This document shows, piece by piece, positions 10,131 through 26,561 of a DNA stretch of 30,301 nucleotides; the stretch's first letter is position 1; the number at the start of each line of letters is the position of its first letter. The translations under genes were made by a program, and so were the position numbers. Below the pieces are notes generated by a model, which worked only from the letters and a program-made list of their open reading frames with translations, was not told where the DNA came from and ran no database searches. The stretch is from a virus, in the IMG/VR virus record IMGVR_UViG_3300030060_006448, positions 1-30,301 of that record, one strand, 5' to 3'.

Positions 10131-10322
10131 CTAGGATAATGTCAAGGTCGTTGAACCAATACCAGAAACAGTAAAGGTTAACTTATTATCTACTACAGTA
10201 ATTTGAACTCCATTAATAGTTGCACTAATGTCTGTACTAATACCTACATTATTTTCTACAGCAGAAGCTAAAACCTCTGCACCAGTATCAGTTGAATCAT
10301 CAAGATAACTATACCATTTCAT
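10131..10322 (-). CDS. Small beta-rich protein following the spike-region genes (63 aa)
   Basis: The protein has a charged start (MKWYSYLDDSTDTGAEVLASAVE) and a C-terminal half of beta strands (ISATINGVQITVVDNKLTFTVSGIGSTTLTL). Its start overlaps the stop of the 248-residue gene in a TAATG junction. An AGGAGGA Shine-Dalgarno at 10330-10336, seven bases before the ATG, supports this start and lies inside the upstream gene. Co-translation with the 248-residue protein suggests a minor virion component or partner of it. I do not recognise the family. Confidence 0.65.
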   Translation of the reverse strand: MKWYSYLDDSTDTGAEVLASAVENNVGISTDISATINGVQITVVDNKLTFTVSGIGSTTLTLS

Positions 10323-11068
10323 TACAATGTCCTCCTATCATAGTGGTATCCAGCAATAGAATATTGATCATTTTTTCCTGGATAATCTTCTGGTGTCTGT
10401 CCATAATATTCTGGAGTTAATGCTTCACCATCAGCACGAGCACCAAATACATGAAAGAAAGCATGAATAGGTATCCCACCTTTAGATTGTAAATGAATTT
10501 GAGTTGGTTCTACCCTCTTAACAATGAGATCTTGATGTGCTCCTATTGGTGTTAAACTCACAGTAATTGTTGTATGATCTACCAGATCTTTCCAATAATC
10601 AGGAAGCTGTATTACATTCTTGTTTATTACTTTTCCACGATAATATACTCCACCTTCTGGACCTTCTAAACAAACATATCTCAATCGATAATTATCTTTA
10701 GTTGGGTGTTTAATATCAAATCCTTTCCATCCCTGAACATTGATAGAACTACCAGACCATGCACATGCTTGTCCAGTACATGCTAATAGATTACTAGTAT
10801 GAAGATTCCCATTATTAATAGTCTGATGTCCATCTACTGTTAAAGAATTAAATACCCCTTGAGGACAGTCTTTATCATCATTCTTCAAAGAGGTAATCAT
10901 CACAGTAGCATCTGCTTCTGAAAAAGTCAAAGGATCACCCAATACCACTGGACCTTCAACGTGCATAGATCCATTTATCTTTTCATCACCTTGCTTAATA
11001 GCAGGTGGAATACCAGTTCCTACTTGAAGTTGACCTCCAATATTTAAATCATCCAAATTAGTAGACAT
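10322..11068 (-). CDS. Beta-rich tail/baseplate structural protein (248 aa)
   Basis: The N-terminus (LNIGGQLQVGTG, then repeated short strands such as GSMHVEGPVVLGDP) has the spacing of trimeric fibre or spike repeats. From about residue 115 a globular domain follows: KGFDIKHPTKDNYRLRYVCLEGPEGGVYYRG, split here as KGFDIKHPTKDNYRLR and YVCLEGPEGGVYYRG, then VIQLPDYWKDLVD and a series of strands (TITVSLTPIGAHQDLIV). I have seen this HP(T)-LR-CLEGPE pattern in structural proteins of marine T4-like phages but cannot assign a specific T4 counterpart. A perfect AGGAGGA at 11076-11082 lies seven bases before the ATG. It follows the EF-hand spike candidate by 12 bases and is coupled to the 63-residue gene, so it probably belongs to the spike/baseplate assembly group. 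Confidence 0.65.
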   Translation of the reverse strand: MSTNLDDLNIGGQLQVGTGIPPAIKQGDEKINGSMHVEGPVVLGDPLTFSEADATVMITSLKNDDKDCPQGVFNSLTVDGHQTINNGNLHTSNLLACTGQACAWSGSSINVQGWKGFDIKHPTKDNYRLRYVCLEGPEGGVYYRGKVINKNVIQLPDYWKDLVDHTTITVSLTPIGAHQDLIVKRVEPTQIHLQSKGGIPIHAFFHVFGARADGEALTPEYYGQTPEDYPGKNDQYSIAGYHYDRRTL

Positions 11069-11080
11069 TTTCTATTCCTC

Positions 11081-11782
11081 CTAAACTACGTTGTTCTCTT
11101 CTAAAAACCTTTGACCACCCACTTTAGAATCTTTAACTTTAACTGCATCAGTGACTCCACGAATAATAGAGGAGTAAATTTTCATACAACTATTAGCAGC
11201 AACCCACATTATACCAGTGGTGGTAATTTTAGTCAATGACTTAGAATCTAAAATAATTTTTTTAGTTTCATGAATAGTAAAAGTTTCGGTGGCAGTACAT
11301 TTAATATGCCCTTTAGAACCACCTTCACCAACAGCAACCAATTCAATATCAGTTCCCTGCAATCTAATTTTTCCATTTAGAGCAGTAATACAAATATTAC
11401 CATTAATTGCATTTAAAATTAAAGTATCATCTGCTTCCTCATTATCTTCACCTGCCATAACCTGAAAATTACCAGGACTAGTAGATGAAGTCCAATTTTT
11501 TCTTTGACCATCAACATCTAAAGAAAATTGGTGTCTTCCATCAGTACCCTCCAACATGGCTCCAGAAGTCACATCACCTTTTTTATGGATGTGTCCAAAT
11601 CTAAGAGTTCCTTTATCTGTACCATATCTTATGGCAGTAAAATTCTGTTTGGCTGTGACTGAAGAAGGTGGTCCTTCCCTTCCACCAAAATCAGCTGCCT
11701 CTTGTGCAGAAATTACACCATCAAGATTAGTATCCTGAACTTTAGGAATTCTATTTAAATTTTCATTACTAGCTGTAGGCAT
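11081..11782 (-). CDS. EF-hand and beta-repeat protein, candidate central-spike component
   Basis: Residues 17-28 form a complete EF-hand calcium loop (DTNLDGVISAQE: D1, N3, D5, G6, I8, S9, E12). Residues about 45-100 are polar beta segments. From about residue 118 the sequence becomes a regular series of strands (GNICITALNGKIRLQG, then TDIELVA, then GHIKCTATETFTIHE, then KKIILDSKS), resembling the C-terminal beta-helical needle of T4 gp5 and VgrG-type spikes. It ends with KVGGQRFLEENNVV. The gp5-like hub in this window has no such needle, so this gene may supply it, possibly stabilised by Ca2+. It starts five bases after the stop of the 1912-residue gene without its own Shine-Dalgarno, so coupling is likely. 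The spike role is inference; the EF-hand loop is directly visible. Confidence 0.6.
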   Translation of the reverse strand: MPTASNENLNRIPKVQDTNLDGVISAQEAADFGGREGPPSSVTAKQNFTAIRYGTDKGTLRFGHIHKKGDVTSGAMLEGTDGRHQFSLDVDGQRKNWTSSTSPGNFQVMAGEDNEEADDTLILNAINGNICITALNGKIRLQGTDIELVAVGEGGSKGHIKCTATETFTIHETKKIILDSKSLTKITTTGIMWVAANSCMKIYSSIIRGVTDAVKVKDSKVGGQRFLEENNVV

Positions 11783-11787
11783 TTTAA

Positions 11788-14700
11788 TTAAGTAAGATTA
11801 TCGGGGGTTCCAGGAATATTAAGTCGAGGATCATTACTATTAATGTCCGTACCCTGTCTCTGAATTGCAGATGGAGGTGTGGTGACTTCAGCATCGATGC
11901 TCTCCTGTAGAGTATCATATATCTGAACCTTTTGACCTGGTGTGTCATAGTATCCAGCAAAACGAACACCATCTTCATAGAAGACAGCACCGTAATAAGG
12001 TTTACCATCATAAAAACCAGTCTGTTTCAACCCAACCAAATCAGTAACTTGAATTAACTTGGTAGCATCAGAAATGATGGGATCTCTCACCGTTTTAAGT
12101 TTAGGCACTCCCACAAACCCTATACCAGTTGGTACTTTTTTTGTATTTGGTTTTGTTCTAACCCTAACTCTAGGCCATCCTTTAAATCCAGTCATTTTTT
12201 CGTCTGGAAGAATTGGAACTTTTTCTATTTCACCAAAAGGACCAAATTCTGGTTCATAACAAATTTCTTCACCTGTTTCAGTATTTTGCACACATACTAA
12301 ATCTCCTGGTCCATAGTTAATTCCAGGATTTCCTGTTGGACCATCTGTAGTAATATCAGTACATTCTATTATGACTGGATAAGATGGGGGATCACCACCA
12401 CCTCCAGGAGGAGGGGGAGTCTTAAAACTATTTCCAGGATCATCAATAATAACATCAGTAACAATTCCTACACCATTTATCTTTTTAGGACAAGGAGGTG
12501 GAATAAGAGCAGCAGATATACCTATTGGGTTAATTTTCCAAGATTTACCCAAAGATTCACCATTCTTATCTTTAATTGCTACATCTACTGGATATGTTAT
12601 TTTTACAGCGGCAACAGTTGGATTTTGATTAAATGGAAGTCCTAAAGGGATATTACTCAAAGTCAATTGAACATCATGTTTTCCTTTAGTGACATTAACT
12701 TTAGTGCGACTGATACCTTCCGTAACTGCTGCTCTAGCAATAACTTGTGTTGACTCAATTTTTACTAATAAAACATCATCCGCTAAAGCAGCTATATCAT
12801 ACGTAGCATCTTCAGGAAAATCAACATCTCTCCATGTCATTACCCACTCTTTTCCATTAAAATTGGCAATATAATCTTCATCAGTTGTCCAAGTGGGAGT
12901 AATAGTAGGACCAAGATCTGAGTTAGTATAAGTTGATATTGGTGGTCCTTCATAAGTAACACCGTCTTTTGCTGATCCATCTACAAGACCTCTACCATAT
13001 TCTATTGTAGTTTTAGTTTTACTGGGAACTCTAAACTTACAAGTTCTTCCCTGCATATCATAAAATTCACCCTCAGTAGCAGAACATATAATATCTGCCC
13101 AATCATTATCAGTCCAATCCTCCATTTGAACAACACCCTTCCCCTTATTTCTCAACTGAATATTAGAATTATTATTACTATCAGGAGCACCTATCTCAAC
13201 AGTATGCGTCTCACTACCACTCCTACCAGATTGTGTCCACGTTGTGGTTCCTATCTTAATTCTTTGTACCGCAACTCCAAAAGTTCTAGGTCTATCATTC
13301 CAAGATAATGTGAACTTAACACTTCCACTTCCTATTAAATTCCTACCATCAGTAGAAAACTTAACATCTCCACTATCAATAGTAAAGGAAGCATTTGCAT
13401 CATTACCATCACCATCTTTTAATGCAAGTCTCTTTCCATTATTAGTAACATTAATAGGATTATTTGAAGCATTTAATCCAGTAAATTCAATTCCCGATGG
13501 TAGGGCAACACGACCAGAAGTACTACTAGTAAATCGTACCTCATAAACTTTTTCAGTTTCTATAGCAAATGTATGAGTAACTCGTATATCCTTTCCCGCT
13601 CCATATTCTTTAGATTCAGAGAATAAAGGAGCATTGAGTAAACTACCATCAAACAAAGTAATTGAATTGGCATAAAGAGATGCAGAAGATATATTAAATG
13701 TAACATCTTGAGTTGTGGGACCATCAACAGTAATTTCTGTTTTTGTTTGTTTATTAGCCCAATCAGCAGTACTCCAAATTTTCTTATCAACACTAGTCAT
13801 TTCATATTGTGCGTCATTCTCAACTTCTACTTCAATTTGATGAACTCCTTTCTCTAATAAAATTTTTACCATATCAGGAGTTGTTGCTAACTTAACAGAC
13901 TGTAAATTTTTATCAGCATTAGGTCCAAGAACTTCCTCACTATCAATTAAAATTCTACCAACATTATCAACTGTTCCTTTTAATCCATAAAATCCTCTAA
14001 AAGGAATATCAACTTTCCACGCAGCAGCATATTTACCACCAGAACCATCTGTTCCCTTAGTAGATAAAGGAGGAAGGGGAGATATTGCATATCTATTTGA
14101 AAATTTACTCCATCCATCAACTCTCACTGGCCACCATGATGATGTATTATCAACAACATATTCACTAGAATTTACATCCATTCTAGTGTTCCAAAGGGGA
14201 TTATTAGGACACCTACCCTCTTGTAATAGAGGGGGTTCAGTGGGAAGAGGAGCAAGAGGAGCATCAATTGTCATTGCAATTCCCAGTGGATTATCTAACC
14301 AAGATTTTTGAGAAATAACCGTTATCTCATCTGAAACAAATGCTGCTTTAATATTAACAGCAAGCAACATTGGATTTCCAGAAGATATTGTTGCACCTGG
14401 TCTCTGTTCAAGAATTGCCTTTAATGTATAAGAACCTTTTTTGAAATATGTAATCTCCACAGATTTACCTGTGCTTACACCTTCTATTTTAACTCCTTCT
14501 TTTTTTAGAATAATATCACTTTCTCCCCGTTTACTAAAAACAAGTTCTACATTATCATCAACCATTATTTCTACAGCATAATTTCCAGCTTCTGGGAATG
14601 TAATATTATTCCAAATAATATCATGAAAACCAGCAAAATCATCAGTAGCTGCATGAGGATAATCAGGATACCCCATCACTGTTTCAGGAATCTGTTTAAT

Positions 14701-17526
14701 TGTTTGTATAGGATTAACAGCAGTTATTTTTAAAAGTCCATTCTGATCATACCCACTAGTAATATCATCATCAAATCCAAGTGTTGTAGAATCAATTTGT
14801 ATTTGACCCGATCTACTACTTCCACCAATAGTTTTTACCAAATATTTTTTACCACCAGTAAATTCTCCAAATCCAGTTTCATTGGCAAATCTTCTATTAA
14901 CATCTCTTTTTAAGACTATATCATCAGCATCTGTTTTTATTTTAATTTCACTTAATGCCAAAGAAGATATTCCTGGTCTATCATCAATATCCATCCTAAA
15001 ATTAACTTTTGCCCTTCCATCACCAATTACTTTAATATAGGTATCACCATTTTCTACTACAAATTTTACAGTAGGAGTAATCGAAGGGATGACAACCTCT
15101 TCTCTAATAATATCCTTTCCTATTTTATCAGGAGGAATAGGATTAAATGGAGTCACACCATATTTTTGAGAAAAATTAGCATCTACACCAGCATCAGGAT
15201 TAGTTTTCCATAAAGTTCTATCCGCTCTTGCTATCCAATCTAATGTATTAAAAATATTATCTATATTACTTGTATTTTCACTTATAACATCAGGTCTAGT
15301 GAGTATATATTTACATCTATCACCAGATATACCATAAAATTTTCCTTTAGAAACAGCACATGAAAGATCATCCCAAGACTCATCAGTCCAATCTTCCATT
15401 ACTAAAACTTTTTCACCTTTAGTTTTCAACTGAATATTAGAGTTATTATTAACTGTATTAGGTGGATATATCCAAACATCCTCGGTTACACTTCCATCTT
15501 GTCTATTTGTTCTAGTCCAAGTTTTATCGGCAATTGAAAATGAATCAAGAGAAACTCCACCAGTTCTTGGATTATCAGACCATCTTAAAGTAATAGTTGC
15601 CTTAACTCTCTTTCCAGAAACTTTAAGTCCTCTACCATCATCAGTAAATATAACTGAACCACCATCAGTTTTATCTATTGTAATTATAGCATTTGTGTCA
15701 CGACCACTACGATCTATTAAATCAATACGTTTTCCATTATTATTAACATTAATAGGGTTATTTCTTGGGTTTAAATTCTTATAAACAACAGGAATATTAC
15801 TGCTCTTTTGTGTTTGATTATTACTCCTAACTTTTACATCATAAACTCTACCATATTCAACTGTTTTTGTAATCGTTTCTACAATATCTTTTCCCTCTCC
15901 ATATTCTTTAGATTCATCAATACCAAGATCTGGAATTTCAAAACCATTAGCATAAAGAGAAGCAGTTTTTATATTAAAAGTAACGTCATCAGAAACACCA
16001 CCACCAATATCATCAATAGCTGTTTGTATTTTCTTCGTTTCCATTCTCACAATATTTTCCAAATTCGCAGTAATTTTGTGAACACCAGGTTTTGTTATAG
16101 TATGTTTAATACTAACTGGTGGTGATAATACATTACCTGCAGCACCACCTGACCCCAATTTAAATACTGCCTCTCCATTAGAATTTTTTAGTGGTTCTCC
16201 ATCAATAAAAACATATGCTCTATTGTCGCATTGAATGTTAAAGATATAATCTCCCACCCAAGGAAAATTTTCCTCCCATTCAAATGTATAAGTTTTTCCT
16301 GCATTATCAGTTGCTATGGCATTTGACATAGGAATAGGAGATATTGCATTCTTATTCATAAAATTCTCTTTATCATACTCATAATATTGTCCAAAAAGAT
16401 AAGTCACATCTGGCATAACAGGTATACATTCACCTTCACATACCCTCTTCCACTCAGGTTGAAGTTTCATCCCCTCCTCAATCTGAGTAAGACTCTGACC
16501 ACTAGATTGTAGATTTTTCCAATACGCAAGACCCTCTGGTTCACCTCTTCTTCCAAATAATTTTATATAAAGATTATCAATCGGATCATTTGTTCCTGGA
16601 TTTGCACCCCATGCCCAATGATATACATCATAGGTTGTTCTTGATGTAAAATCAGGACCAACAACCTTTATAGGTGTTTTATTTCTTGATGACCACCACC
16701 CAATAATAGTATCATTTTCAATTCTTGTTCCATCACCCAAAGAAAGAAGATAAGATTGATATTCATCAATTCTTTGTGCTACAGGATCTTTTGATTTATT
16801 CAAATATACAAAAGGATCCCATTTACCTAAAATTTTTCCATCAGAACCAAATCTTTGTCCATATGATACATTTTCCAAAGTTGGAATGCATGAATTTAAA
16901 TCATACTCCTCAAAATCATCCTCACCATCAAATTCTACTATAAGAAAATCAGTAGAAGCCGTGCTTGTTTTAATTATTGAACGAGCAACAACTCCTGCCC
17001 CTGAACCAGTGTCATCATGTATATCAACAATTGGAGCATATTGATATCCAAATCCACCATGAATAACATCAACATCTAAAATAGCTCCATCAATACCAAT
17101 AACAGGATTAGCCTGAACTCCAACTCCACCACCACCATAAAAATTAACTTTAGTCTTATCTACAACTGTAGGAACATTATCTGATTGTGTACTTCCTCCT
17201 GCAGGAGGAATATTTGAACTTAAAAAATCATCAACACTTTGACTAGTATCACCATCTGGATTCAATCCCACAATTCCACTACATTTATCAAAAGCAGAAT
17301 TTTTTTCTGGGAGCATCATGTCAGGAGTTAATTTATTAACTTCATTGATGTTCAAATATTTTACAAAATCCCTATTTCTAAAAATAAATTGAGTTCCAGG
17401 ATTAAGCTGGGCATACTTATTAGCTTCATGAATACCAATACCATCCACAAATCCTCTATCAGTTGATATATAACCAACTGTAATATTACATCTAGACGAA
17501 TTTCCAAACAGATCGAAAGTTGCCAT
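11788..17526 (-). CDS. Giant (1912 aa) modular baseplate/tail protein with DUF4214-like and PA14-like modules
   Basis: In order, an N-terminal region has a glycine-rich turn (GGGGVGVQANP) near residue 130. A DUF4214-like helical module lies at about 312-365 (IDNLYIKLFGRRGEPEGLAY). Then come two related super-units, about 387-1095 and 1140-1677. Each contains PA14-like beta modules, a roughly 230-residue beta module with NPINVxNNGKR and EDWTDxxW motifs, and a closing SWxxNPxGI plus proline-rich segment. The C-terminus (about 1680-1912) includes a PPPPGGGG linker. Its last 120 residues (YDGKPYYGAVFYEDGVRFAG, then TPPSAIQRQGTDIN) are of a type I recognise from marine T4-like phage structural proteins. 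PA14 folds often bind carbohydrate, so a glycan-binding peripheral baseplate role is plausible but unproven. An AATAAATA late box lies 21 bases upstream. It sits between the gp5-like hub and the spike candidate. Confidence 0.75.
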   Translation of the reverse strand: MATFDLFGNSSRCNITVGYISTDRGFVDGIGIHEANKYAQLNPGTQFIFRNRDFVKYLNINEVNKLTPDMMLPEKNSAFDKCSGIVGLNPDGDTSQSVDDFLSSNIPPAGGSTQSDNVPTVVDKTKVNFYGGGGVGVQANPVIGIDGAILDVDVIHGGFGYQYAPIVDIHDDTGSGAGVVARSIIKTSTASTDFLIVEFDGEDDFEEYDLNSCIPTLENVSYGQRFGSDGKILGKWDPFVYLNKSKDPVAQRIDEYQSYLLSLGDGTRIENDTIIGWWSSRNKTPIKVVGPDFTSRTTYDVYHWAWGANPGTNDPIDNLYIKLFGRRGEPEGLAYWKNLQSSGQSLTQIEEGMKLQPEWKRVCEGECIPVMPDVTYLFGQYYEYDKENFMNKNAISPIPMSNAIATDNAGKTYTFEWEENFPWVGDYIFNIQCDNRAYVFIDGEPLKNSNGEAVFKLGSGGAAGNVLSPPVSIKHTITKPGVHKITANLENIVRMETKKIQTAIDDIGGGVSDDVTFNIKTASLYANGFEIPDLGIDESKEYGEGKDIVETITKTVEYGRVYDVKVRSNNQTQKSSNIPVVYKNLNPRNNPINVNNNGKRIDLIDRSGRDTNAIITIDKTDGGSVIFTDDGRGLKVSGKRVKATITLRWSDNPRTGGVSLDSFSIADKTWTRTNRQDGSVTEDVWIYPPNTVNNNSNIQLKTKGEKVLVMEDWTDESWDDLSCAVSKGKFYGISGDRCKYILTRPDVISENTSNIDNIFNTLDWIARADRTLWKTNPDAGVDANFSQKYGVTPFNPIPPDKIGKDIIREEVVIPSITPTVKFVVENGDTYIKVIGDGRAKVNFRMDIDDRPGISSLALSEIKIKTDADDIVLKRDVNRRFANETGFGEFTGGKKYLVKTIGGSSRSGQIQIDSTTLGFDDDITSGYDQNGLLKITAVNPIQTIKQIPETVMGYPDYPHAATDDFAGFHDIIWNNITFPEAGNYAVEIMVDDNVELVFSKRGESDIILKKEGVKIEGVSTGKSVEITYFKKGSYTLKAILEQRPGATISSGNPMLLAVNIKAAFVSDEITVISQKSWLDNPLGIAMTIDAPLAPLPTEPPLLQEGRCPNNPLWNTRMDVNSSEYVVDNTSSWWPVRVDGWSKFSNRYAISPLPPLSTKGTDGSGGKYAAAWKVDIPFRGFYGLKGTVDNVGRILIDSEEVLGPNADKNLQSVKLATTPDMVKILLEKGVHQIEVEVENDAQYEMTSVDKKIWSTADWANKQTKTEITVDGPTTQDVTFNISSASLYANSITLFDGSLLNAPLFSESKEYGAGKDIRVTHTFAIETEKVYEVRFTSSTSGRVALPSGIEFTGLNASNNPINVTNNGKRLALKDGDGNDANASFTIDSGDVKFSTDGRNLIGSGSVKFTLSWNDRPRTFGVAVQRIKIGTTTWTQSGRSGSETHTVEIGAPDSNNNSNIQLRNKGKGVVQMEDWTDNDWADIICSATEGEFYDMQGRTCKFRVPSKTKTTIEYGRGLVDGSAKDGVTYEGPPISTYTNSDLGPTITPTWTTDEDYIANFNGKEWVMTWRDVDFPEDATYDIAALADDVLLVKIESTQVIARAAVTEGISRTKVNVTKGKHDVQLTLSNIPLGLPFNQNPTVAAVKITYPVDVAIKDKNGESLGKSWKINPIGISAALIPPPCPKKINGVGIVTDVIIDDPGNSFKTPPPPGGGGDPPSYPVIIECTDITTDGPTGNPGINYGPGDLVCVQNTETGEEICYEPEFGPFGEIEKVPILPDEKMTGFKGWPRVRVRTKPNTKKVPTGIGFVGVPKLKTVRDPIISDATKLIQVTDLVGLKQTGFYDGKPYYGAVFYEDGVRFAGYYDTPGQKVQIYDTLQESIDAEVTTPPSAIQRQGTDINSNDPRLNIPGTPDNLT
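12495..14110 (-). repeat. Internal super-unit 2 of the 1912-residue protein
   Basis: It encodes roughly residues 1140-1677. It contains a PA14-like module (AISPLPP start), a 230-residue beta module (QDVTFNISSASLYAN to RTCKFRV), a second PA14-like module and SWKINPIGI. It is protein-level homologous to the unit at 14240-16365, with no obvious long nucleotide identity, so the duplication is old. Confidence 0.65.
14240..16365 (-). repeat. Internal super-unit 1 of the 1912-residue protein
   Basis: It encodes roughly residues 387-1095. The order matches unit 2: AISPIP-containing PA14-like module, beta module (DDVTFNIKTASLYAN to DRCKYIL), second PA14-like module and SWLDNPLGI. This copy also holds about 180 additional residues (near 770-950) that echo the NPRTGGVSLDSFSI core strand as DRPGISSLALSEIKI. 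Confidence 0.65.
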
Positions 17527-17547
17527 ATCCTGATTCTTTATAAAAAG

Positions 17548-17555
17548 TATTTATT
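17548..17555 (-). promoter_or_regulatory. Late promoter box AATAAATA for the 1912-residue gene
   Basis: The minus strand reads AATAAATA, one base from TATAAATA, and ends 21 bases before the ATG at 17526. Its first two bases are the last two of the preceding gene's TAA stop (17556-17554). Confidence 0.5.
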
Positions 17556-19365
17556 AGGTTGTGGTTGAATCATCAAAAAATACATCCAAAGTCGCTGCCG
17601 TTGGTTCAGCAAATTGTTCAACAACTTTAGGAATAATTTCATCCCTTACCTTATTAGTGGCAGCTGTTATTGCGTCAAAACTTGGTAACTGATCTTGTGC
17701 AGAAGATGCTCCTCCACTACAAAAAGTATAATAGTCAGAAACAGCTGGATTAGGAGGAAGTTCAAAAGGAAAAACATTCATTTTTATATTTTCAAAATTC
17801 AAAGCTGATGTCATATTACCTTTCATGTCCTTCATTGCAGAAAACACACTGGTAATACTTCCACTAACACCAGCAAGATCACTCATACAATCAGTTACAA
17901 AAGAATCCATATTGTCAAGAATATTTTGATTAGTTTCATTTATTTTACCTTTACTAGCTGATAAAACAGTAGCTATAACATCTTCTGAATTACAAATAGG
18001 AACTTTAGGGATAGCTTTTGGTTTTCCACTACTACTACCTGTTCCTGTACTAGCTATTTGCTGTGCTTTTGCTATTAAACCCTCTGGACCATCCAAATTC
18101 AACATCTTAGTAATTATTCCCTCCATTAAACCTCCCATACCTCCTGTTATATCATTAAAACTAGATAACATATTTTGAGTCATCCCATCTTTCAAATCAG
18201 CCATCTGCCATCTTTTACATGAGGGTATCGCAGAGACAGCATTAGTCATTTCTTTATTTAAAGATTTTTGACTATATTCCATCACCTTATCCATTATAAT
18301 TTTCATATATTTAGATTGACTTTTAGAATTATTACTAATAACCTTCTTCAAATTCTTAACTCCCCTAGTCATTGAAACTGCATCAGTATAACTTGATAAT
18401 GCATTTAAAGCTTTATCAATATCCTGAACCATATTATCCATATCAGTTTGCATTGCCCTATTACAAGACTCAACAATATTATCTGGTTTTAATAAAACTC
18501 TCTTCTTACAAAATATTTCATCTAATTTAATAGTAGCAGCAGTTTGTCCATGAACCCCTTCACCTTCCCAAGTAGCTCCTGGTTGAACAGGTGATCTTGA
18601 AGAATTTGCTTCCGATGTTCTAGCTGTCACTCCTGATGCAACCCTATCTCTTATTAACTGTTGTTGTTCTGATAAAGAAAAATTAGTATTTGTAGATAGG
18701 ATAAGATTTATTTCTTCTCTAGCACTTGCAATATCAGCTAATTGATTTTTTGTTAATGGTAAATTGGATGGAAGTCCATATATGTTCAAACTCACTCCTG
18801 GTGCAGGAGTAGCGGATTCTTGTGCCTGTTCTTCAGTTTTTGGTTTTTCTACTCCTTTATCACCATCATTAGGAATAGCTTCAGTTAATCCAGCATGATC
18901 TATTTGTCCTTTAGCATATCCACTAACTCCAACAGTACCTCCACTATCATTAGTTACTTCACTATCACCGATAGTCGTTTTTAAAGGAGTCTGGGTATTA
19001 TTTCCCAAAACTCCCATAATGACAGGTTGCTGTCCTTCTATTGCCCCATCCATGAAGAATCCAAAGACAATATTACCTTGTCTAAGCATTGGGGTTTGAC
19101 CCGATCCTTGAAGATAAGCTCCTGCAGTAATGGGATACATTACATTTGCCCAAGGCAAATTTTTAGATTCAATAGATCCTTCACCCCAATCATGAAGACC
19201 GAAAATCCTTACCTTATACCGATATCCCCAACCTCTTATACTTTTCTTGCTTTTAAATTTTCCAGCATTGATATTATCGCGCCAAAAAGAATCATCAGCA
19301 ATTTGACCAATCCACCAATTAAACGCTTGTCCTGCAAATTGAGGATCTAAAAGAGGTTCATTCAT
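17554..19365 (-). CDS. 5: gp5-like baseplate hub protein without a visible lysozyme domain
   Basis: The N-terminal ~125 residues match the OB-fold domain of T4 gp5: YRYKVRIFGLHDWGE, then KNLPWANVMYPITAGAYLQG, then a loop ending VIMGVLGNN. In T4 this domain binds the gp27 trimer and links tail tube to spike. After it T4 gp5 has a lysozyme domain and a beta-helical needle. Here the 603 residues continue as a Gln/Ser-rich linker and then a largely helical region (about 250-520) with scattered cysteines. The protein ends in a proline-containing block (FPFELPPNPAVSDYYTF) that I associate with marine T4-like gp5 proteins. I see no T4-lysozyme active-site pattern and no needle repeats. The start overlaps the stop of the His-rich gene in a TAATG junction. 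The hub assignment is good; how the cell wall is breached is unexplained. Confidence 0.8.
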   Translation of the reverse strand: MNEPLLDPQFAGQAFNWWIGQIADDSFWRDNINAGKFKSKKSIRGWGYRYKVRIFGLHDWGEGSIESKNLPWANVMYPITAGAYLQGSGQTPMLRQGNIVFGFFMDGAIEGQQPVIMGVLGNNTQTPLKTTIGDSEVTNDSGGTVGVSGYAKGQIDHAGLTEAIPNDGDKGVEKPKTEEQAQESATPAPGVSLNIYGLPSNLPLTKNQLADIASAREEINLILSTNTNFSLSEQQQLIRDRVASGVTARTSEANSSRSPVQPGATWEGEGVHGQTAATIKLDEIFCKKRVLLKPDNIVESCNRAMQTDMDNMVQDIDKALNALSSYTDAVSMTRGVKNLKKVISNNSKSQSKYMKIIMDKVMEYSQKSLNKEMTNAVSAIPSCKRWQMADLKDGMTQNMLSSFNDITGGMGGLMEGIITKMLNLDGPEGLIAKAQQIASTGTGSSSGKPKAIPKVPICNSEDVIATVLSASKGKINETNQNILDNMDSFVTDCMSDLAGVSGSITSVFSAMKDMKGNMTSALNFENIKMNVFPFELPPNPAVSDYYTFCSGGASSAQDQLPSFDAITAATNKVRDEIIPKVVEQFAEPTAATLDVFFDDSTTT

Positions 19366-19634
19366 TAGTCGTCATATACTCTACACTCTAATGAGTCTGG
19401 ATGATTATCACAATAAACTTCTAAGTGTTGATCCTCATGTCTCGTATGCCAATCATTGATCTTACCATCATTCTTATTCACTTCATCTTCTGAGTGAGCA
19501 TGGAAGGCATCATTATGCATTTCCAAATCCTTTTCAGAATATTCTATCATGCCATGATTGACATGCTCCTTATGATCCTTTGGATCAATATAAACCTCAT
19601 GTTCGAGGTCGTGTTTAGGAATTTCAGTTGTCAT
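19365..19634 (-). CDS. His- and acid-rich small protein between hub genes (89 aa)
   Basis: Twelve of 89 residues are histidine and roughly a third are Asp or Glu (for example HDLEHEVYIDPKDHKEHVNH). Two cysteines flank a C-terminal DNHPDSLE segment. There is no membrane segment or known fold. The composition suggests metal binding or a charged assembly factor, which is inference only. It has an excellent setting: an exact TATAAATA box 20 bases upstream, an AGGAG Shine-Dalgarno, and a TAATG overlap with the gp5-like gene, so the two are co-translated. That makes a role in hub folding or assembly, or presence in the virion beside gp5, more likely than an unrelated function. Confidence 0.7.
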   Translation of the reverse strand: MTTEIPKHDLEHEVYIDPKDHKEHVNHGMIEYSEKDLEMHNDAFHAHSEDEVNKNDGKINDWHTRHEDQHLEVYCDNHPDSLECRVYDD

Positions 19635-21120: not shown

Positions 21121-21128
21121 TATTTAAC
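21121..21128 (-). promoter_or_regulatory. Possible degenerate late box GTTAAATA before the gp27-like gene
   Basis: The minus strand reads GTTAAATA, departing from NATAAATA at the second base. It ends 20 bases before the ATG at 21101, the usual distance here. Its internal TAA (21126-21124) is the stop codon of the preceding gene. Confidence 0.35.
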
Positions 21129-23334
21129 CACCAGCGTATGCAGCTAGATTCATCTCAGATGTAGCAGATGATCCAGTATCAATTGTTGAAACTGCTGTGT
21201 CATTATTACCACCACTTACATTTGAATTTGCACCTCCATCATTAGACATAATAATAGTAGTGCCATTATTAGACTCTTCATAAGAAGCAAAGTTTGCAAC
21301 AGATCCTGACCTATCGTTGGATGCTCCCGAAACCAATTCAGAACTATTTTGATTATTATTGCTAGTAGTAGAATTATTAATATCACTTACATTAGTTTCT
21401 TCACCAGCACCTTTTATCATATGATCCAACAATCCAGAAGGATCTCTTATAAGTGGTCTAGGTGTAAGTCCCAAATTCTCAGCAATAGGATCTTGTATTT
21501 CTGCCAACTCTGGGAACTTATGGAGTATACCACTAATCATTTTTGCAACTATAGCTTCAGCTATTCCTGCACCCACAATACCACCCATAAATGATAATGG
21601 ACTTGGAACACCACCTGTTATAGCAGTTCCTATAGCAGAACCAGCAGCAAATCCCAAGGTTCCTGCAGTTGCTTTAAGAATTGCATTGACAGGAGACTCA
21701 CCAAAAGCAGCATAATCCACAATAGCAAAAATAGCATCAAGTGCAATATCTACAGGACCTAATCCATCAGCAAGACCTTTATTTTTTCTAACAACATCAA
21801 CAATTGGCATCATTTTCTTACCAATTTTATCAAAATTCTTAGAAACAAATCCCAATGCTTTTTTGGGTTTTAAATTCTCTAAAAGTTTTTTTACAGCAGG
21901 ATTACCATCAACAACTTTATCTAAATTCTTTCTAACCATATTAGTAATATTTTCCAACATTTTTGAAGGACTCAACTTATCCAATTGTTTCCCTAATGTT
22001 GCTCCAATTTCATCAAATTTATTTTTCCAACTACCTAATTTTTCACCTATTATTGGTCCTATTTTTTTAGCAATATCATCATATTGTGTTTTTACTTTTT
22101 CAGGAATTTCTTGAATATATTTTAGAGTGCTCCCTCCAAAATTTTTTAATCCTTGGTAAGCGCCAGAAACAATTTCTGATCCTCGCTTTAAAACATTACT
22201 ACCAATCTCACCCAACTTCCTAAATGGAGCACCTAAATCAGGTAGAAAAGCATCAATATTCCTCCCAACCTGTTTCCAATCTACATTTTTTGCTCTGTTT
22301 AGTAGACCCTCACCTCTTTTAGTAATATTTCCAAAAATCTTTCCAATATCAATATTTCGTGCAGCTGAGTCACCAGTAATATTAGGTTTACGACGAAATA
22401 TATCTGTAATTTTTTGAAGTGGTCCTTCAGTGACTCCAGTAATATTAGGTTTACGACGAAATATATCTGTAATTTTTTGGAGTGGTCCTTCAGTGACTCC
22501 AGTAATATTAGGTCTATTACGAAATGGATTAATATTCCTTACAAATTCTCTTGCCTTACTCAAAGGACCTTCACTGAGTTGACGACCAAGACTAGTAGTT
22601 CTTCTATTGTTTATCCTATTAAATCTACTATTAGGTAAATCAATATTTCTAATTCTCCCTCTCCCTCTAGGTCTCCCACCACCATCTCCTCCTGCATTAC
22701 CAAATGCCAGAGCAGCTAAGGCAACCATCCCAATAAGATTAAAAACTTTGTTTAAAGTTCCTGCAATACCATCAAAAATTTGTACTCCTTTTCTACCAAA
22801 TACATTTCCTATAAAATTTCTAGTAGCATCATAGGCTCGATACCCCCAATCAATAAAAGTTGCCAATCCATTCAAGATTTTACCGACAAAATCAATAAGC
22901 CAATCAGCAACTTTAGCAATGACTTTAAGAACTTTTAATACCGCAGGTAAATTATCTAATAATCGAACGGCAAGCCATCCAATTAAAATAGTTTTAAGAA
23001 AATTCTTTACACCATCTAAAAAACTTAATTTAGGAACTTTAATCTTGTTTGGAGTGTCCTTCTCCTGATCATCTTGTTTTGGTTTTTCTACATCCTGTTC
23101 TTTCTGTGATCTTTGTTCCTGTTCTATATCTTGTTTTTCTTGCGTTCGTTTTACTTTTTCAAAAGCCAAAGTTCCCTTCAAAAGTTTATCAATTTGTACT
23201 ACTTTACTTTTAATAGTATAAAGAGAACTCTCTTCGGGTTTTGATATTTTAGTTAATTCTTCTTTAGGACGCACAGCAAGTGACCCACCCTTTTCATTCT
23301 TTCCTAAAAATTTATTTTTATCTATGACTGCCAT
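21124..23334 (-). CDS. Large hub-associated tail protein with hydrophobic segments (736 aa)
   Basis: Order of parts: a basic N-terminus, a charged coiled-coil-like stretch (about 60-100, rich in Glu, Gln and Lys), and a long hydrophobic/amphipathic region (about 105-235, including KTILIGWLAVRLLDNLPAVL). A repeat block (about 254-320) contains three EGPL...NITG units. A helical centre is followed by a glycine/alanine-rich hydrophobic segment near 580-640 (AGTLGFAAGSAIGTAITGG) and a low-complexity Ser/Asn/Gly tail. It overlaps the preceding 777-residue gene by a TAATG junction and shares that protein's plan: charged coil then hydrophobic region. Position between gp51-like and gp27-like genes suggests a counterpart of T4 gp28/gp29 hub or tape-measure proteins. 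Sequence identity to them is not apparent to me, so the role is inferred. Confidence 0.65.
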   Translation of the reverse strand: MAVIDKNKFLGKNEKGGSLAVRPKEELTKISKPEESSLYTIKSKVVQIDKLLKGTLAFEKVKRTQEKQDIEQEQRSQKEQDVEKPKQDDQEKDTPNKIKVPKLSFLDGVKNFLKTILIGWLAVRLLDNLPAVLKVLKVIAKVADWLIDFVGKILNGLATFIDWGYRAYDATRNFIGNVFGRKGVQIFDGIAGTLNKVFNLIGMVALAALAFGNAGGDGGGRPRGRGRIRNIDLPNSRFNRINNRRTTSLGRQLSEGPLSKAREFVRNINPFRNRPNITGVTEGPLQKITDIFRRKPNITGVTEGPLQKITDIFRRKPNITGDSAARNIDIGKIFGNITKRGEGLLNRAKNVDWKQVGRNIDAFLPDLGAPFRKLGEIGSNVLKRGSEIVSGAYQGLKNFGGSTLKYIQEIPEKVKTQYDDIAKKIGPIIGEKLGSWKNKFDEIGATLGKQLDKLSPSKMLENITNMVRKNLDKVVDGNPAVKKLLENLKPKKALGFVSKNFDKIGKKMMPIVDVVRKNKGLADGLGPVDIALDAIFAIVDYAAFGESPVNAILKATAGTLGFAAGSAIGTAITGGVPSPLSFMGGIVGAGIAEAIVAKMISGILHKFPELAEIQDPIAENLGLTPRPLIRDPSGLLDHMIKGAGEETNVSDINNSTTSNNNQNSSELVSGASNDRSGSVANFASYEESNNGTTIIMSNDGGANSNVSGGNNDTAVSTIDTGSSATSEMNLAAYAGG
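22373..22498 (-). repeat. Tandem 63-bp repeat, two near-identical copies
   Basis: Copies at 22373-22435 and 22436-22498 differ at one base that I can see (A at 22417 against G at 22480). The repeat continues partially to about 22513. Each copy encodes 21 residues around EGPLQKITDIFRRKPNITG. A more diverged protein-level copy lies just upstream (EGPLSKAREFV...RPNITG). The length is a multiple of three, so copy-number changes keep the frame. Confidence 0.9.
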
Positions 23335-25667
23335 TATAAACTAATCCCTAAGACTTGTATTTTTGCAGCAGATCTCATAGCTTTAGGATCAAAATCTGGC
23401 ACTTCCTTAGACGAAACTGTTTGAATCTCTGCTTTTTGCATATCAGAATCAAGTTGTCCACCTTCTTTTTGATAATCCAGAAGAACATTATTTTTAGAAA
23501 CAGGATTTAAATCCATATCCTTTTTAGCTACTGGAGTGAAACCAGCACTATTAACCATACTATCAACATTACTACTTATTGGTCCCAATATACCCGTGTT
23601 ACTACTCTTATTAGTTTCTGACCCAGAAACATTTGCAGCAGCACCAGTAGTCCATCCCATTTTTTTATTAACATAATCTTTGGTTGACATTGCCAACTCT
23701 TCATCAGCACCACCACCAGTACCAGATACATTCCATTTAGTCCCTTTCGTTTGATATTTTTGTTTTCCAAGTCCAAATAAACCTCTAGGCATTTTCTCTG
23801 TCCATTTTATACTTCCAAAACGCATACCACCAGCAACAATATCCTCTATCTTAACACCAGCCTTAATCGCATCTTCATATGAATTGATTGATCCTGCTTC
23901 TACTATAGGTTGTACTAGTCCCCCTTCATTATATCTACCCATTGTTGGTCTATTTGTTCCACCACCAGCAGCATTCATGGCAGCAAGAGTATTAGCACCA
24001 TACTTCTGAACTGCTCCTTTAGACATGACAAACTCACCAGCAGTTAATCTTGCAGGAACTTGGTCTATCCCACCAGGACCAGATACAAAACCACCAGTAA
24101 CCATGTTCTGCCTATTTGCTTGCCTTGCTAATTGGTCAGCAGTAAAAGCACCAGACTTTGCTGCAGGACTTGTAGTATCTTGTTGAGCAGCCATCAATAA
24201 TCTATATGCTGCAGTACCTGGAATATCCTTATTAATATCAAATGCCACATCTCCTTTGAAGTTAGGATTATCTAATGTCTGTCTTCTAATATCCGTCATC
24301 ATAGCAAGAATTGCCCCTTGAGCTTCAGGTATCTGTTGCATGGATGGATTAGACTCAAGACTTGCTACTGAACTATTAAAAGCCTCTTCACTCATATTAG
24401 CAATAAACTCACCAAAATTGGGCATCCTCCCATCTCTATCCATCTTTAATTTTATACCCTGAAAAGCCTCAGGATTTTCATCTACCATCGCATTTTGATC
24501 TTGTACAAACTTCTTCATATGAGGACTAAGTACATCTACCAATAACTCTCTATGTTTAGGATTATCATAATCAAAATCAGCAGGGAGTCCAAAATCTGCA
24601 GGAGTAGGAGCTTGTTGAACTAAAGCACCATCTTTAAATCCTTGAATTAATCCACCACCATTATAATTTCTAATAAATTGATTATAATTATTAACCAATC
24701 CACCACCATTAAATTGACCCTCAAATTGCATAGTATCAAGATCAGCAGCAGTATCATCACCTACATCGTCACCACCAGACATTGCATTTCCCATAAGCAT
24801 TCCTCCACCAAGTAGAAGTGTTGATGACAAAAGTTTTCCTTTTATTCCACCACCAGGAATCATATTGAGAAGTCTACCTGCCTTCATTTTTGCTAAACCC
24901 GCTACGAGTTTAGGAATTATCGTTGTGATAAGACTAACCGCAAATTTACTTATCATCACGGTTAGTCTCACAGCCATTCGACCAAAGGCATTACCAAACA
25001 ACAAATATGCTGTTAATAACACTGGCCACCAATCTTTAACAAATCTAAGAATACTCTGAAGTTTCTTTTGATTTTGTGGATCACTGATCCAATTCATCAA
25101 TTTAAATAATATCCTACCAAAAAAGACAGTCTTTAAAAAATCAAAAACTCTATTCCATGCACTTTTAAATGGTTTGAGTAATTTTGTCGCTGTTTTCTTT
25201 ATTCCATCAAATTTTTTAGCCTCTAATTTGTTCTCTTTAGATTTTCTTCTTTTCTTTTCTTCTTGTCTTTGCTTAAATTTATCAAAATTCTCATCTTGTT
25301 TATAATCTTCTTTTAAAGTATCAACAATAGAATTTACACCAGTTGCAATTTGTTGTAATGAACCACCAATATCTCCTGTAGAACCATTAGGAGGAGATTT
25401 TTTTTGAGTTATTGCATCTGTTTTATTTTCATTTTTACCTAAAAACTTTGATATATTTATTGTCTTTCTTCTTAACTTAAGTTCTTTTTTTACTTCCTTC
25501 TGCAAAATTTCTATATAATCTCTATTATATTCCCCACCCAATGTTTCATCTTCGGAAAAATCATTTACAGCGATATTTAACGCCTTATGGTATGGTGTAT
25601 TATCATCCAGATAACCATACTCTACAAGGATGTCTAATGGTTCAGTAAGTTTTATAGAACTAGGCAT
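23334..25667 (-). CDS. Large tail protein with tape-measure-type motif (777 aa)
   Basis: The N-terminal third is charged, with a coiled-coil-like KFKQRQEEKKRRKSKENKLE near residue 140. Then comes a hydrophobic region (about 185-300: FLKTVFFGRILFKLMNW, WWPVLLTAYLLFGNAFG, LLSSTLLLGGGMLMG). The centre includes NNYNQFIRNYNGGG glycine-asparagine repeats. Near 522-567 it carries GGFVSGPGGIDQVPARL-TAGEFVMSKGAV, the 'D.VPA.LT.GEFV' motif that recurs in phage tape-measure proteins. T4 gp29 (590 residues) is hub protein and tape measure, so this is a good candidate for that role, perhaps inserting hydrophobic parts into the host membrane. It overlaps the gp51-like gene by eight bases and the next gene by TAATG. 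No catalytic domain is visible. Confidence 0.65.
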   Translation of the reverse strand: MPSSIKLTEPLDILVEYGYLDDNTPYHKALNIAVNDFSEDETLGGEYNRDYIEILQKEVKKELKLRRKTINISKFLGKNENKTDAITQKKSPPNGSTGDIGGSLQQIATGVNSIVDTLKEDYKQDENFDKFKQRQEEKKRRKSKENKLEAKKFDGIKKTATKLLKPFKSAWNRVFDFLKTVFFGRILFKLMNWISDPQNQKKLQSILRFVKDWWPVLLTAYLLFGNAFGRMAVRLTVMISKFAVSLITTIIPKLVAGLAKMKAGRLLNMIPGGGIKGKLLSSTLLLGGGMLMGNAMSGGDDVGDDTAADLDTMQFEGQFNGGGLVNNYNQFIRNYNGGGLIQGFKDGALVQQAPTPADFGLPADFDYDNPKHRELLVDVLSPHMKKFVQDQNAMVDENPEAFQGIKLKMDRDGRMPNFGEFIANMSEEAFNSSVASLESNPSMQQIPEAQGAILAMMTDIRRQTLDNPNFKGDVAFDINKDIPGTAAYRLLMAAQQDTTSPAAKSGAFTADQLARQANRQNMVTGGFVSGPGGIDQVPARLTAGEFVMSKGAVQKYGANTLAAMNAAGGGTNRPTMGRYNEGGLVQPIVEAGSINSYEDAIKAGVKIEDIVAGGMRFGSIKWTEKMPRGLFGLGKQKYQTKGTKWNVSGTGGGADEELAMSTKDYVNKKMGWTTGAAANVSGSETNKSSNTGILGPISSNVDSMVNSAGFTPVAKKDMDLNPVSKNNVLLDYQKEGGQLDSDMQKAEIQTVSSKEVPDFDPKAMRSAAKIQVLGISL

Positions 25668-25841: not shown

Positions 25842-26561
25842 CTATGCGAAAAAACTTGATAATCCCTCAAGCACTACCTCACTTTCAACCTTTGTTTTAG
25901 GATTTTTTACATTTATAGTATGAGATAATTTTGGCATAGTATCAAAGAATTGTTCAATATCTTTGAACTGAGTAGAATTCATTGATTCAAGAAATTCTCT
26001 CATCTCTTTTTTAGTACAATCAGCCGCCACCCAAACTTCATCTTCAGTATAAACTTTATCAATACAAGATGCAATCAAATCAAAAGATTGCTCCATTGCA
26101 TTTTTATCATCAAAATCAAAGTTATTTTTAATAAATTCATCAAGAGATGGATATTTTAATTCCATCATAATATTAGAATCAATTTTTATTTTATTTGTAT
26201 GACCTTCAGTTTTTTGAATCTGAATATCATCCAACTCAATTGTCATGGGAACTATAGTTTTCTCATCATCTGGGCATGTAATATTAACTTCAAGTGTTTC
26301 TCCCACAGACTTACCACGAATATTAAGAAACAAATACTCAATATCAAAAGTAGGAAGTTTCTCTACTCTAATTCCTTTAGTAAGAATACAATTCTTAAGA
26401 ACTGCTTTAATAGAATTAGTAATTTGTTTATTATCTTCACTTTCTAAAGCAATTACAAGAACCTTTTCTTCTTTAACGAGAAATGGTCTATAATTGATAG
26501 ATGCACCTGTCGAAGGTAACTCCAACTCATAGGTGGGAGTGGCAATTTTTGGTAAAGGCAT
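25842..26561 (-). CDS. 26: Baseplate hub subunit gp26-like
   Basis: This 239-residue protein opens with MPLPKIATPTYELELPSTG and has LRFRPFLVKEEK-type strands (here INYRPFLVKEEKVLVIALES). FDIEYLFLNIRGKSVGE and a CPDDEK segment follow. T4 gp26 has 208 residues and shares this plan, and gp26 in marine T4-like phages is the first gene of the hub cluster, as here. In T4 gp26 takes part in hub assembly. An exact TATAAATA box lies 23 bases upstream, with an AGGAC ribosome site five bases before the ATG. It therefore heads a transcript running through the gp51-like and two large hub-associated genes. Cysteines in CPDDE could bind metal, but I see no full site. Confidence 0.85.
   Translation of the reverse strand: MPLPKIATPTYELELPSTGASINYRPFLVKEEKVLVIALESEDNKQITNSIKAVLKNCILTKGIRVEKLPTFDIEYLFLNIRGKSVGETLEVNITCPDDEKTIVPMTIELDDIQIQKTEGHTNKIKIDSNIMMELKYPSLDEFIKNNFDFDDKNAMEQSFDLIASCIDKVYTEDEVWVAADCTKKEMREFLESMNSTQFKDIEQFFDTMPKLSHTINVKNPKTKVESEVVLEGLSSFFA

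Follow-up and report, generated by a model that had tools for sequence, protein, structure and literature searches.

A T4-like cyanophage baseplate-hub operon with a gp5 spike probably made of three chains, and with wall enzymes on the tape-measure-like proteins of its relatives

A baseplate-hub cluster with the spike probably in three genes

The 30,301-base IMG/VR virus record IMGVR_UViG_3300030060_006448 (here called the window) comes from a T4-like cyanophage and spans tail and baseplate genes, and our subject is its counterpart of gp5, the T4 spike protein, which combines an OB domain (residues 1-129), a lysozyme (174-339) and a beta-helix (389-575) in one chain (PMC4576200). Genes for gp4, a gp2-like protein, gp48 and gp53 lie on the + strand; on the - strand the order is a tail-tube-like gene, gp26, p777, p736, gp27-like, CP12-like, gp5-like, p1912, needle, p248 and fibre genes. 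Among public records Marine virus AG-345-E15 is closest, with 64.7% identity in gp5. We regard the cluster as a baseplate-hub operon in which the gp5 spike is probably built from three chains, and in whose relatives the wall enzymes reside on the tape-measure-like proteins p736 and p777.

The gp5-like hub protein and the 233-residue protein are encoded by the two minus-strand reading frames given in the initial annotation, and the OB domain that it assigned to the former is borne out by several lines of evidence. Pfam places Gp5_OB at residues 65-127 (E 9.7e-5; 23.1 bits, slightly below the curated cut-off of 25), and a match at E<=0.05 recurs in 46/46 gp5-like homologues. In HHalign the family profile scores 93.9% against T4 gp5 residues 5-101 and at most 2.5% against 15 other T4 proteins, and a PDB profile search matches the same region to T4 gp5 26-89 (E 4e-4). 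(Near-identical homologues were thinned before alignment; the alignment rows of the window and both structure models start at residue 2, and numbering there is that of the full protein minus 1.) The rest of the chain is helical, as had been proposed, with AlphaFold2 helices at about residues 177-520, mostly at a predicted local distance difference test (pLDDT) score of 70-89. Beyond about residue 200 the model consists of helix and loop, its only strands being two 2-residue bridges, so that this chain shows no needle of its own.

Nor does this protein have a recognisable lysozyme. None was found by the Pfam scan, and PF00959 (GH24 lysozyme) has no match anywhere in the window proteins, the same search recovering the T4 gp5 lysozyme as a positive control (residues ~183-310, E 1e-14). 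No lysozyme is among the best 50 matches listed in a PDB fold search with the model, none of which is significant; phmmer with the central 303 residues returned one chance-level match, and no confident lysozyme or peptidase fold was found in residues 130-600. Among the 25 listed of the 62 Pfam families matched by the 46 homologues there is no wall enzyme, although a rare one could be beyond these. Family-specific enzyme searches of named cyanophages and IMG/VR records gave no match in any gp5 frame, and the gp5 of 16 named cyanophages matched none of the wall-enzyme families searched. Three related gp5-like proteins are longer (L008:11813-14731, L079:9986-12739 and L080:9986-12760; 917-972 residues), an additional glycine-rich stretch preceding their C-terminal part.

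The initial annotation left the gene that follows, p1912, out of the spike. A profile of its first 300 residues matches the unsplit gp5 of P-TIM68, S-SCSM1, S-SSM7, ACG-2014f, S-CAM7 and DSL-LC02 (E 1e-15 to 3e-9), with weak matches also in ACG-2014j and ACG-2014e, and a profile of its last 272 residues matches that of P-TIM68 (E 3e-24), S-SCSM1 (3e-31), S-SSM7 (1e-11) and DSL-LC02 (4e-8). Since these two ends correspond to the C-terminal half of unsplit gp5, p1912 is, judged by homology, the missing middle of the spike, and gp5 is spread over three genes. Between the ends lie PA14-like modules. PA14 matches occur in 30/30 p1912 homologues, which reach 2,873 residues, and the two best matches of p1912 in a PDB profile search are 6qdi, a PA14 protein (E 9e-7), and 6qe7, RsgI3 (E 3e-4). 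Gene order is nearly invariant: among IMG/VR loci where the next labelled gene is present, gp5 is followed by p1912 in 69/69 and p1912 by the needle in 38/39, the sole exception (L066) having two successive p1912 frames. As a side observation, an esterase-type BD-FAE domain is found in one member of the p1912 family, while single members have domains of the chitin-binding or fucose-lectin type.

The 233-residue protein had been described as needle-like, and our results agree. All three PDB profile matches at E<=1 are spikes of contractile systems (two VgrG proteins and All3320; E 0.04-0.18), and in structural comparison VgrG 8gra is best (144 residues aligned, Z 6.4). In the AlphaFold2 monomer, five strands at residues 50-100 are followed by an extended, almost unpaired stretch, which is nevertheless confident at residues 121-200 (block means of pLDDT 79-90), as expected for a chain that pairs only with two partner chains. 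The T4 needle domain has the same outline, four antiparallel strands coming first and an intertwined part after them (PMC4576200). Sequence periodicity is supportive only, 48 tests having been made: lag-8 autocorrelation is seen at residues 160-205 (p 0.001) and lag-2 at 118-170 (p 0.0015), with lag-8 at p 0.09 over the whole stretch 115-205. We consider the protein a well-supported, if not proven, needle.

Comparison with other phages shows the spike in one, two or three genes. S-RIM2, ACG-2014d and Stenotrophomonas phage Mendera have OB domain, helices and a needle-like end in one chain; P-TIM68, S-SCSM1, S-SSM7, Syn1 and others have two genes; the window's group has three. SynMITS9220M01 shows the three-way split in compact form (gp5 556, middle gene 405 and needle 181 residues), the N and C parts of p1912 adjoining in the 405-residue gene without PA14 between them. 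In a tree of gp27 (39 rows, rooted by midpoint only) all phages with three spike genes fall into a single starred group of 27 rows (98/97), which would fit a single splitting event, and the window belongs with AG-345-E15, L009, L010 and L011 to a starred clade (100/100). We also considered the idea that the lysozyme had been split off gp5 in this phage and rejected it, because the one-chain gp5 of the cyanophages S-RIM2 and ACG-2014d, like that of Mendera, has no PF00959 lysozyme either. Of the proposal that the gp5 functions are divided among genes, the separation of hub and needle therefore stands, and that of the lysozyme does not.

Table 1. Positions of the spike, hub and tape-measure-like features in the window.
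Feature	Position	Strand	Basis or remark
gp5-like hub protein, 603 residues	17554..19365	-	OB and helical region, without lysozyme or needle; phrog_33098 E 3e-169
OB domain of gp5-like protein, residues ~1-125	18991..19365	-	Pfam, HHalign, PDB profile
Helical region of gp5-like protein, residues ~177-571, at the place of the T4 lysozyme	17653..18837	-	AlphaFold2
p1912, 1,912 residues, putative middle piece of split spike, PA14-like modules	11788..17526	-	Homology, Pfam
p1912 N-terminal part, residues ~1-250	16777..17526	-	Profile matches to unsplit gp5, C-terminal half
p1912 C-terminal part, residues ~1640-1911	11794..12609	-	Profile matches to end of unsplit gp5
p1912 variable middle, PA14-like repeats, approximate limits	12577..16374	-	Profile searches
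Probable needle gene, separate, 233 residues	11081..11782	-	Profile, fold, AlphaFold2
p248, conserved gene after needle	10322..11068	-	phrog_17490
gp27-like hub/tail protein, 478 residues	19665..21101	-	Name from gene position and PHROG 350 alone
p736, tape-measure-like, no recognised wall enzyme; homologues have them	21124..23334	-	
p736 site of relatives' muramidase/hydrolase cassettes, ~14 residues in the window	21442..21486	-	Alignment
p777, tape-measure-like, no recognised wall enzyme; homologues have them	23334..25667	-	PDB 8zdo, PHROG 3547
gp26-like baseplate hub gene, cluster start	25842..26561	-	Pfam T4_baseplate E 5e-75
CP12-like gene	19365-19634	-	Pfam PF02672 E 5.6e-8

Two neighbouring genes deserve mention. 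A CP12-like gene (a Calvin-cycle regulator) lies between the gp27-like and gp5-like genes and overlaps the gp5 start; CP12 stands immediately before gp5 in 59 IMG/VR loci, and its presence near gp5 was mentioned earlier (PMC3037559). The gene after the needle, p248, is represented in many relatives by a tandem pair of related genes.

Wall enzymes on p736 and p777 of related phages

The initial annotation raised the possibility that one of the large proteins conceals an enzyme, and for the relatives of this phage this proved to be so. In a Pfam scan of 42 p736 homologues we found PF18013 (Phage_lysozyme2) in 9, Hydrolase_2 in 6, M23 in 2, and the lytic transglycosylase types SLT_3 and SLT and Glucosaminidase in 1 each; 33 p777 homologues gave PF18013, GH24 and Hydrolase_2 in 2 each, and GH19, VanY and CHAP in 1 each. 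Of 14 p736 cassettes in two families, 13 could be placed on the alignment (two by way of a row sharing their start), and every one of these lies at a single site. That site measures 14 residues in the window, 0-4 in the four nearest relatives, and 82 or more in 25/33 other homologues.

A Pfam enzyme is present in p736 or p777 in 8/16 named cyanophages (P-HM2, DSL-LC02, ACG-2014f, S-RIM2, S-TIM4, ACG-2014d, Syn1 and S-SCSM1). The p736 site of P-HM2 is empty, yet its p777 carries VanY. S-SM2 and Bellamy have in p736 a metallopeptidase-like signature, H-x6-D...H-x-H, a motif of LAS peptidases; Pfam does not report it there, and did not reproduce the label 'transglycosylase domain-containing' given to the S-SM2 protein. 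For P-TIM68 and S-SSM7 neither a Pfam enzyme nor the signature was found in p736 or p777, and for ACG-2014j, ACG-2014e, S-CAM7 and SynMITS9220M01 a search confined to five families gave no match in these proteins. In p736 homologues, among them those at L002:4983-7520 and L003:4241-6637, the signature is C-terminal and occurs in 21/54 (0.21 expected from shuffles); in p777 homologues it occurs in 2/40 (0.04 expected). Both counts include near-copies and several matches with a poor first half. Searches with six families over 31 IMG/VR records placed an enzyme in p736 or p777 in 19 of them, some matches scoring below the curated threshold, and three more records are gained through the signature. 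A search of 40 records with SLT (PF01464) gave nothing, though one p736 homologue had matched SLT in the Pfam scan.

For relatives, protein data from virions have also been published. In S-SCSM1 the homologue of the window's p777 (E 2e-14), which is the gene called 'lysozyme' in that phage, has a glucosaminidase domain, its neighbouring gene has a VanY domain, and the record labels both enzyme genes virion proteins. The virion proteome of this phage contains an endo-beta-N-acetylglucosaminidase (ORF213) and a D-Ala-D-Ala carboxypeptidase (ORF214) (PMC9602691). S-CREM2 has two 'endolysins' of about 1,565 and 1,456 residues just before the central-spike genes, detected by 73 and 71 unique peptides, and its tail measures 418 nm (PMC10665884). 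By their position these would be the equivalents of p777 and p736, and such long proteins together with a long tail would fit the tape-measure role that we propose.

In the window itself the same proteins appear empty. No enzyme cassette was recognised in p736 or p777, nor a wall-enzyme domain in the gp5-like protein or p1912, by Pfam, NCBIfam and PDB profiles built from relatives, and the H-x6-D...H-x-H signature is absent from all 16 window proteins scanned. The suggestion of a hidden enzyme was thus right for the relatives and found no counterpart in the window copies. No cassette was recognised by Pfam and motif in p736 and p777 of AG-345-E15, L009, L010 and L011 either. The enzyme-free label in our tree covers eight rows, on the evidence of Pfam and motif; the other rows were tested unevenly (L032, L036, L041, L062, L079, L080, ACG-2014j, S-CAM7 and SynMITS9220M01).

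A proposed mechanism and its alternatives

Taken together, these results suggest the following scheme, which we consider likely. The gp5-like protein, with its OB domain and helices, would act as an adaptor on the ring of the gp27-like protein. The former C-terminal half of gp5, enlarged by PA14 modules of a carbohydrate-binding type, would form the middle of the spike as p1912, and the 233-residue protein would be a trimeric beta-helical needle. Sheath contraction would drive the three-part spike through the outer membrane, the PA14 modules perhaps holding on to surface glycans. The wall, which in T4 is the target of the gp5 lysozyme, would in the relatives be cut by exchangeable enzyme cassettes carried on two tape-measure-like proteins in the tail tube and released with the DNA. 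As no cassette is recognised in the window and its four nearest relatives, the wall there may give way to mechanical force, to an enzyme whose gene lies outside the window, or to a domain that the libraries do not know.

Several findings weigh against parts of this scheme. The model of the gp5-like protein is of low confidence overall (mean pLDDT 60), and homology only is what places p1912 in an assembled spike. The needle matches known spikes weakly in sequence (E 0.04-0.18), and its Z of 6.4 is within the range attainable by chance; HHalign found nothing between the needle profile and the C-terminal part of T4 gp5 or 16 T4 proteins, and a Foldseek search gave no match at E<=0.001. The names gp27-like and tape-measure-like are without confirmation against T4 gp27 or gp29. 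The 478-residue gp27-like protein was unmatched by HHalign to T4 gp27, to the 16 T4 proteins and to the C-terminal part of T4 gp5, and returned nothing in PDB profile searches with the family or the single sequence; p777 matches the PDB tape measure protein 8zdo over one motif (E 4e-6) and PHROG 3547 (E 9e-7), p736 has no PDB match and reaches PHROG 5448 at E 0.07, and for both HHalign did not detect T4 gp29, and neither any of 16 T4 proteins nor the C-terminal part of T4 gp5 was matched. The authors of the S-SCSM1 study allow that both enzymes may be carried by the virion or be carry-over in its preparation (PMC9602691). Finally, the window spans 30.3 kb of what in complete relatives is a genome of 150-230 kb, and an enzyme could lie elsewhere.

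This last point leads to the alternative that survives best, namely a virion wall enzyme whose gene lies in another part of the genome. Relatives such as S-SM2, Bellamy, DSL-LC02 and S-CAM7 do encode small proteins with wall-enzyme domains far from the cluster, but these are mostly frames of 140-250 residues, more like lysis enzymes, and the tail-cluster enzymes found in the relatives examined are in p736 or p777; we hold this explanation to be rather unlikely. An unrecognised wall enzyme within p777, p736 or p1912 of the window seems unlikely to us as well. A p777 segment of about 95 residues (587-680), common only to L010, L011 and L012 among the loci compared, is situated in the region of the relatives' enzymes, and profile searches do miss such domains, as Pfam missed the p736 signature of S-SM2 and Bellamy that reading and a motif scan revealed; but the profile and signature searches of the window described above stand against it, and L006 of the same clade is without the segment. 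Quite improbable, too, is a clade of T4-like cyanophages devoid of any virion wall enzyme, in which a three-chain spike would breach the wall of the Gram-negative host mechanically while its middle chain grips glycans through PA14, and whose sister clades would swap cassettes at a fixed site. That p1912 acts as an adhesin of its own, lodged between gp5 and needle but outside the spike, as its PA14 and other lectin-type modules, the esterase of one homologue and its great length might suggest, is very doubtful, given that both its ends have matches in the C-terminal half of gp5 where that gene is unsplit (the N part clearly in six named phages, the C part in four) and that SynMITS9220M01 has both ends alone as one gene.

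Comparison with known systems

T4-like myoviruses are described as ubiquitous, their genes ranking with the most abundant of ocean systems (PMC3037559). Cyanophage gp5 is routinely labelled 'tail lysozyme', a label that looks wrong, and the enzymes lie in neighbours that are often called 'hypothetical'. The cluster also provides a natural series, with the spike in one, two or three genes and the enzyme present or absent, in which to ask if infection by a T4-like phage depends on a wall enzyme. A literature search that left most subscription papers outside its reach found no paper on a three-gene spike or on a cyanophage gp5 without lysozyme. In the accessible text of the 2010 comparison of 26 T4-like genomes the word 'lysozyme' is absent, and a PA14 gene is among the hot-spot genes of Synechococcus phages, one hot spot lying near gp5 (PMC3037559).

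With T4 gp5 (PDB 1k28) the window shares the OB domain on the hub, the position in the baseplate cluster and the needle assigned to the spike; one chain in T4 contrasts with three genes here, lysozyme with a helical region, and PA14 modules occupy the window's middle piece. The clusters of S-SM2 and Bellamy have the same gene order, with gp5, p1912 and needle as separate genes, but their p736 keeps the metallopeptidase-like signature that the window is without, and their annotation does not name the split. S-SCSM1 shares a gp5 with OB domain and helices, a separate needle gene and homologues of p777 and p736, and differs in that a single chain holds gp5 together with the p1912 ends and that glucosaminidase and VanY stand at the p777 and p736 positions.

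Wall enzymes on tape measure proteins and an enzyme-free baseplate are each already known elsewhere. Mycobacteriophage TM4 has a peptidoglycan-hydrolase motif on its tape measure protein that is useful, not essential, for infection (PMC1796659); TM4 is a siphovirus, whereas the tails here are contractile and T4-like, with two proteins of this kind, many enzyme families sharing one site, and no enzyme recognised in those of the window. The baseplate of Clostridioides phage phiCD508 has, in the published description accessible to us, no recognised wall-cutting enzyme in its tail-tip proteins (PMC11948020); it differs from the window in a needle without beta-helix and in a host with an S-layer. 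In jumbo phage CBB a gp5-like protein has been noted that contains an OB domain but has its domains in another order (PMC5259590). Anabaena phage A-1(L), like the relatives of the phage studied here, infects a cyanobacterial host and carries its enzymes off the spike, but there it is the hub protein gp15 that bears them (PMC10966104).

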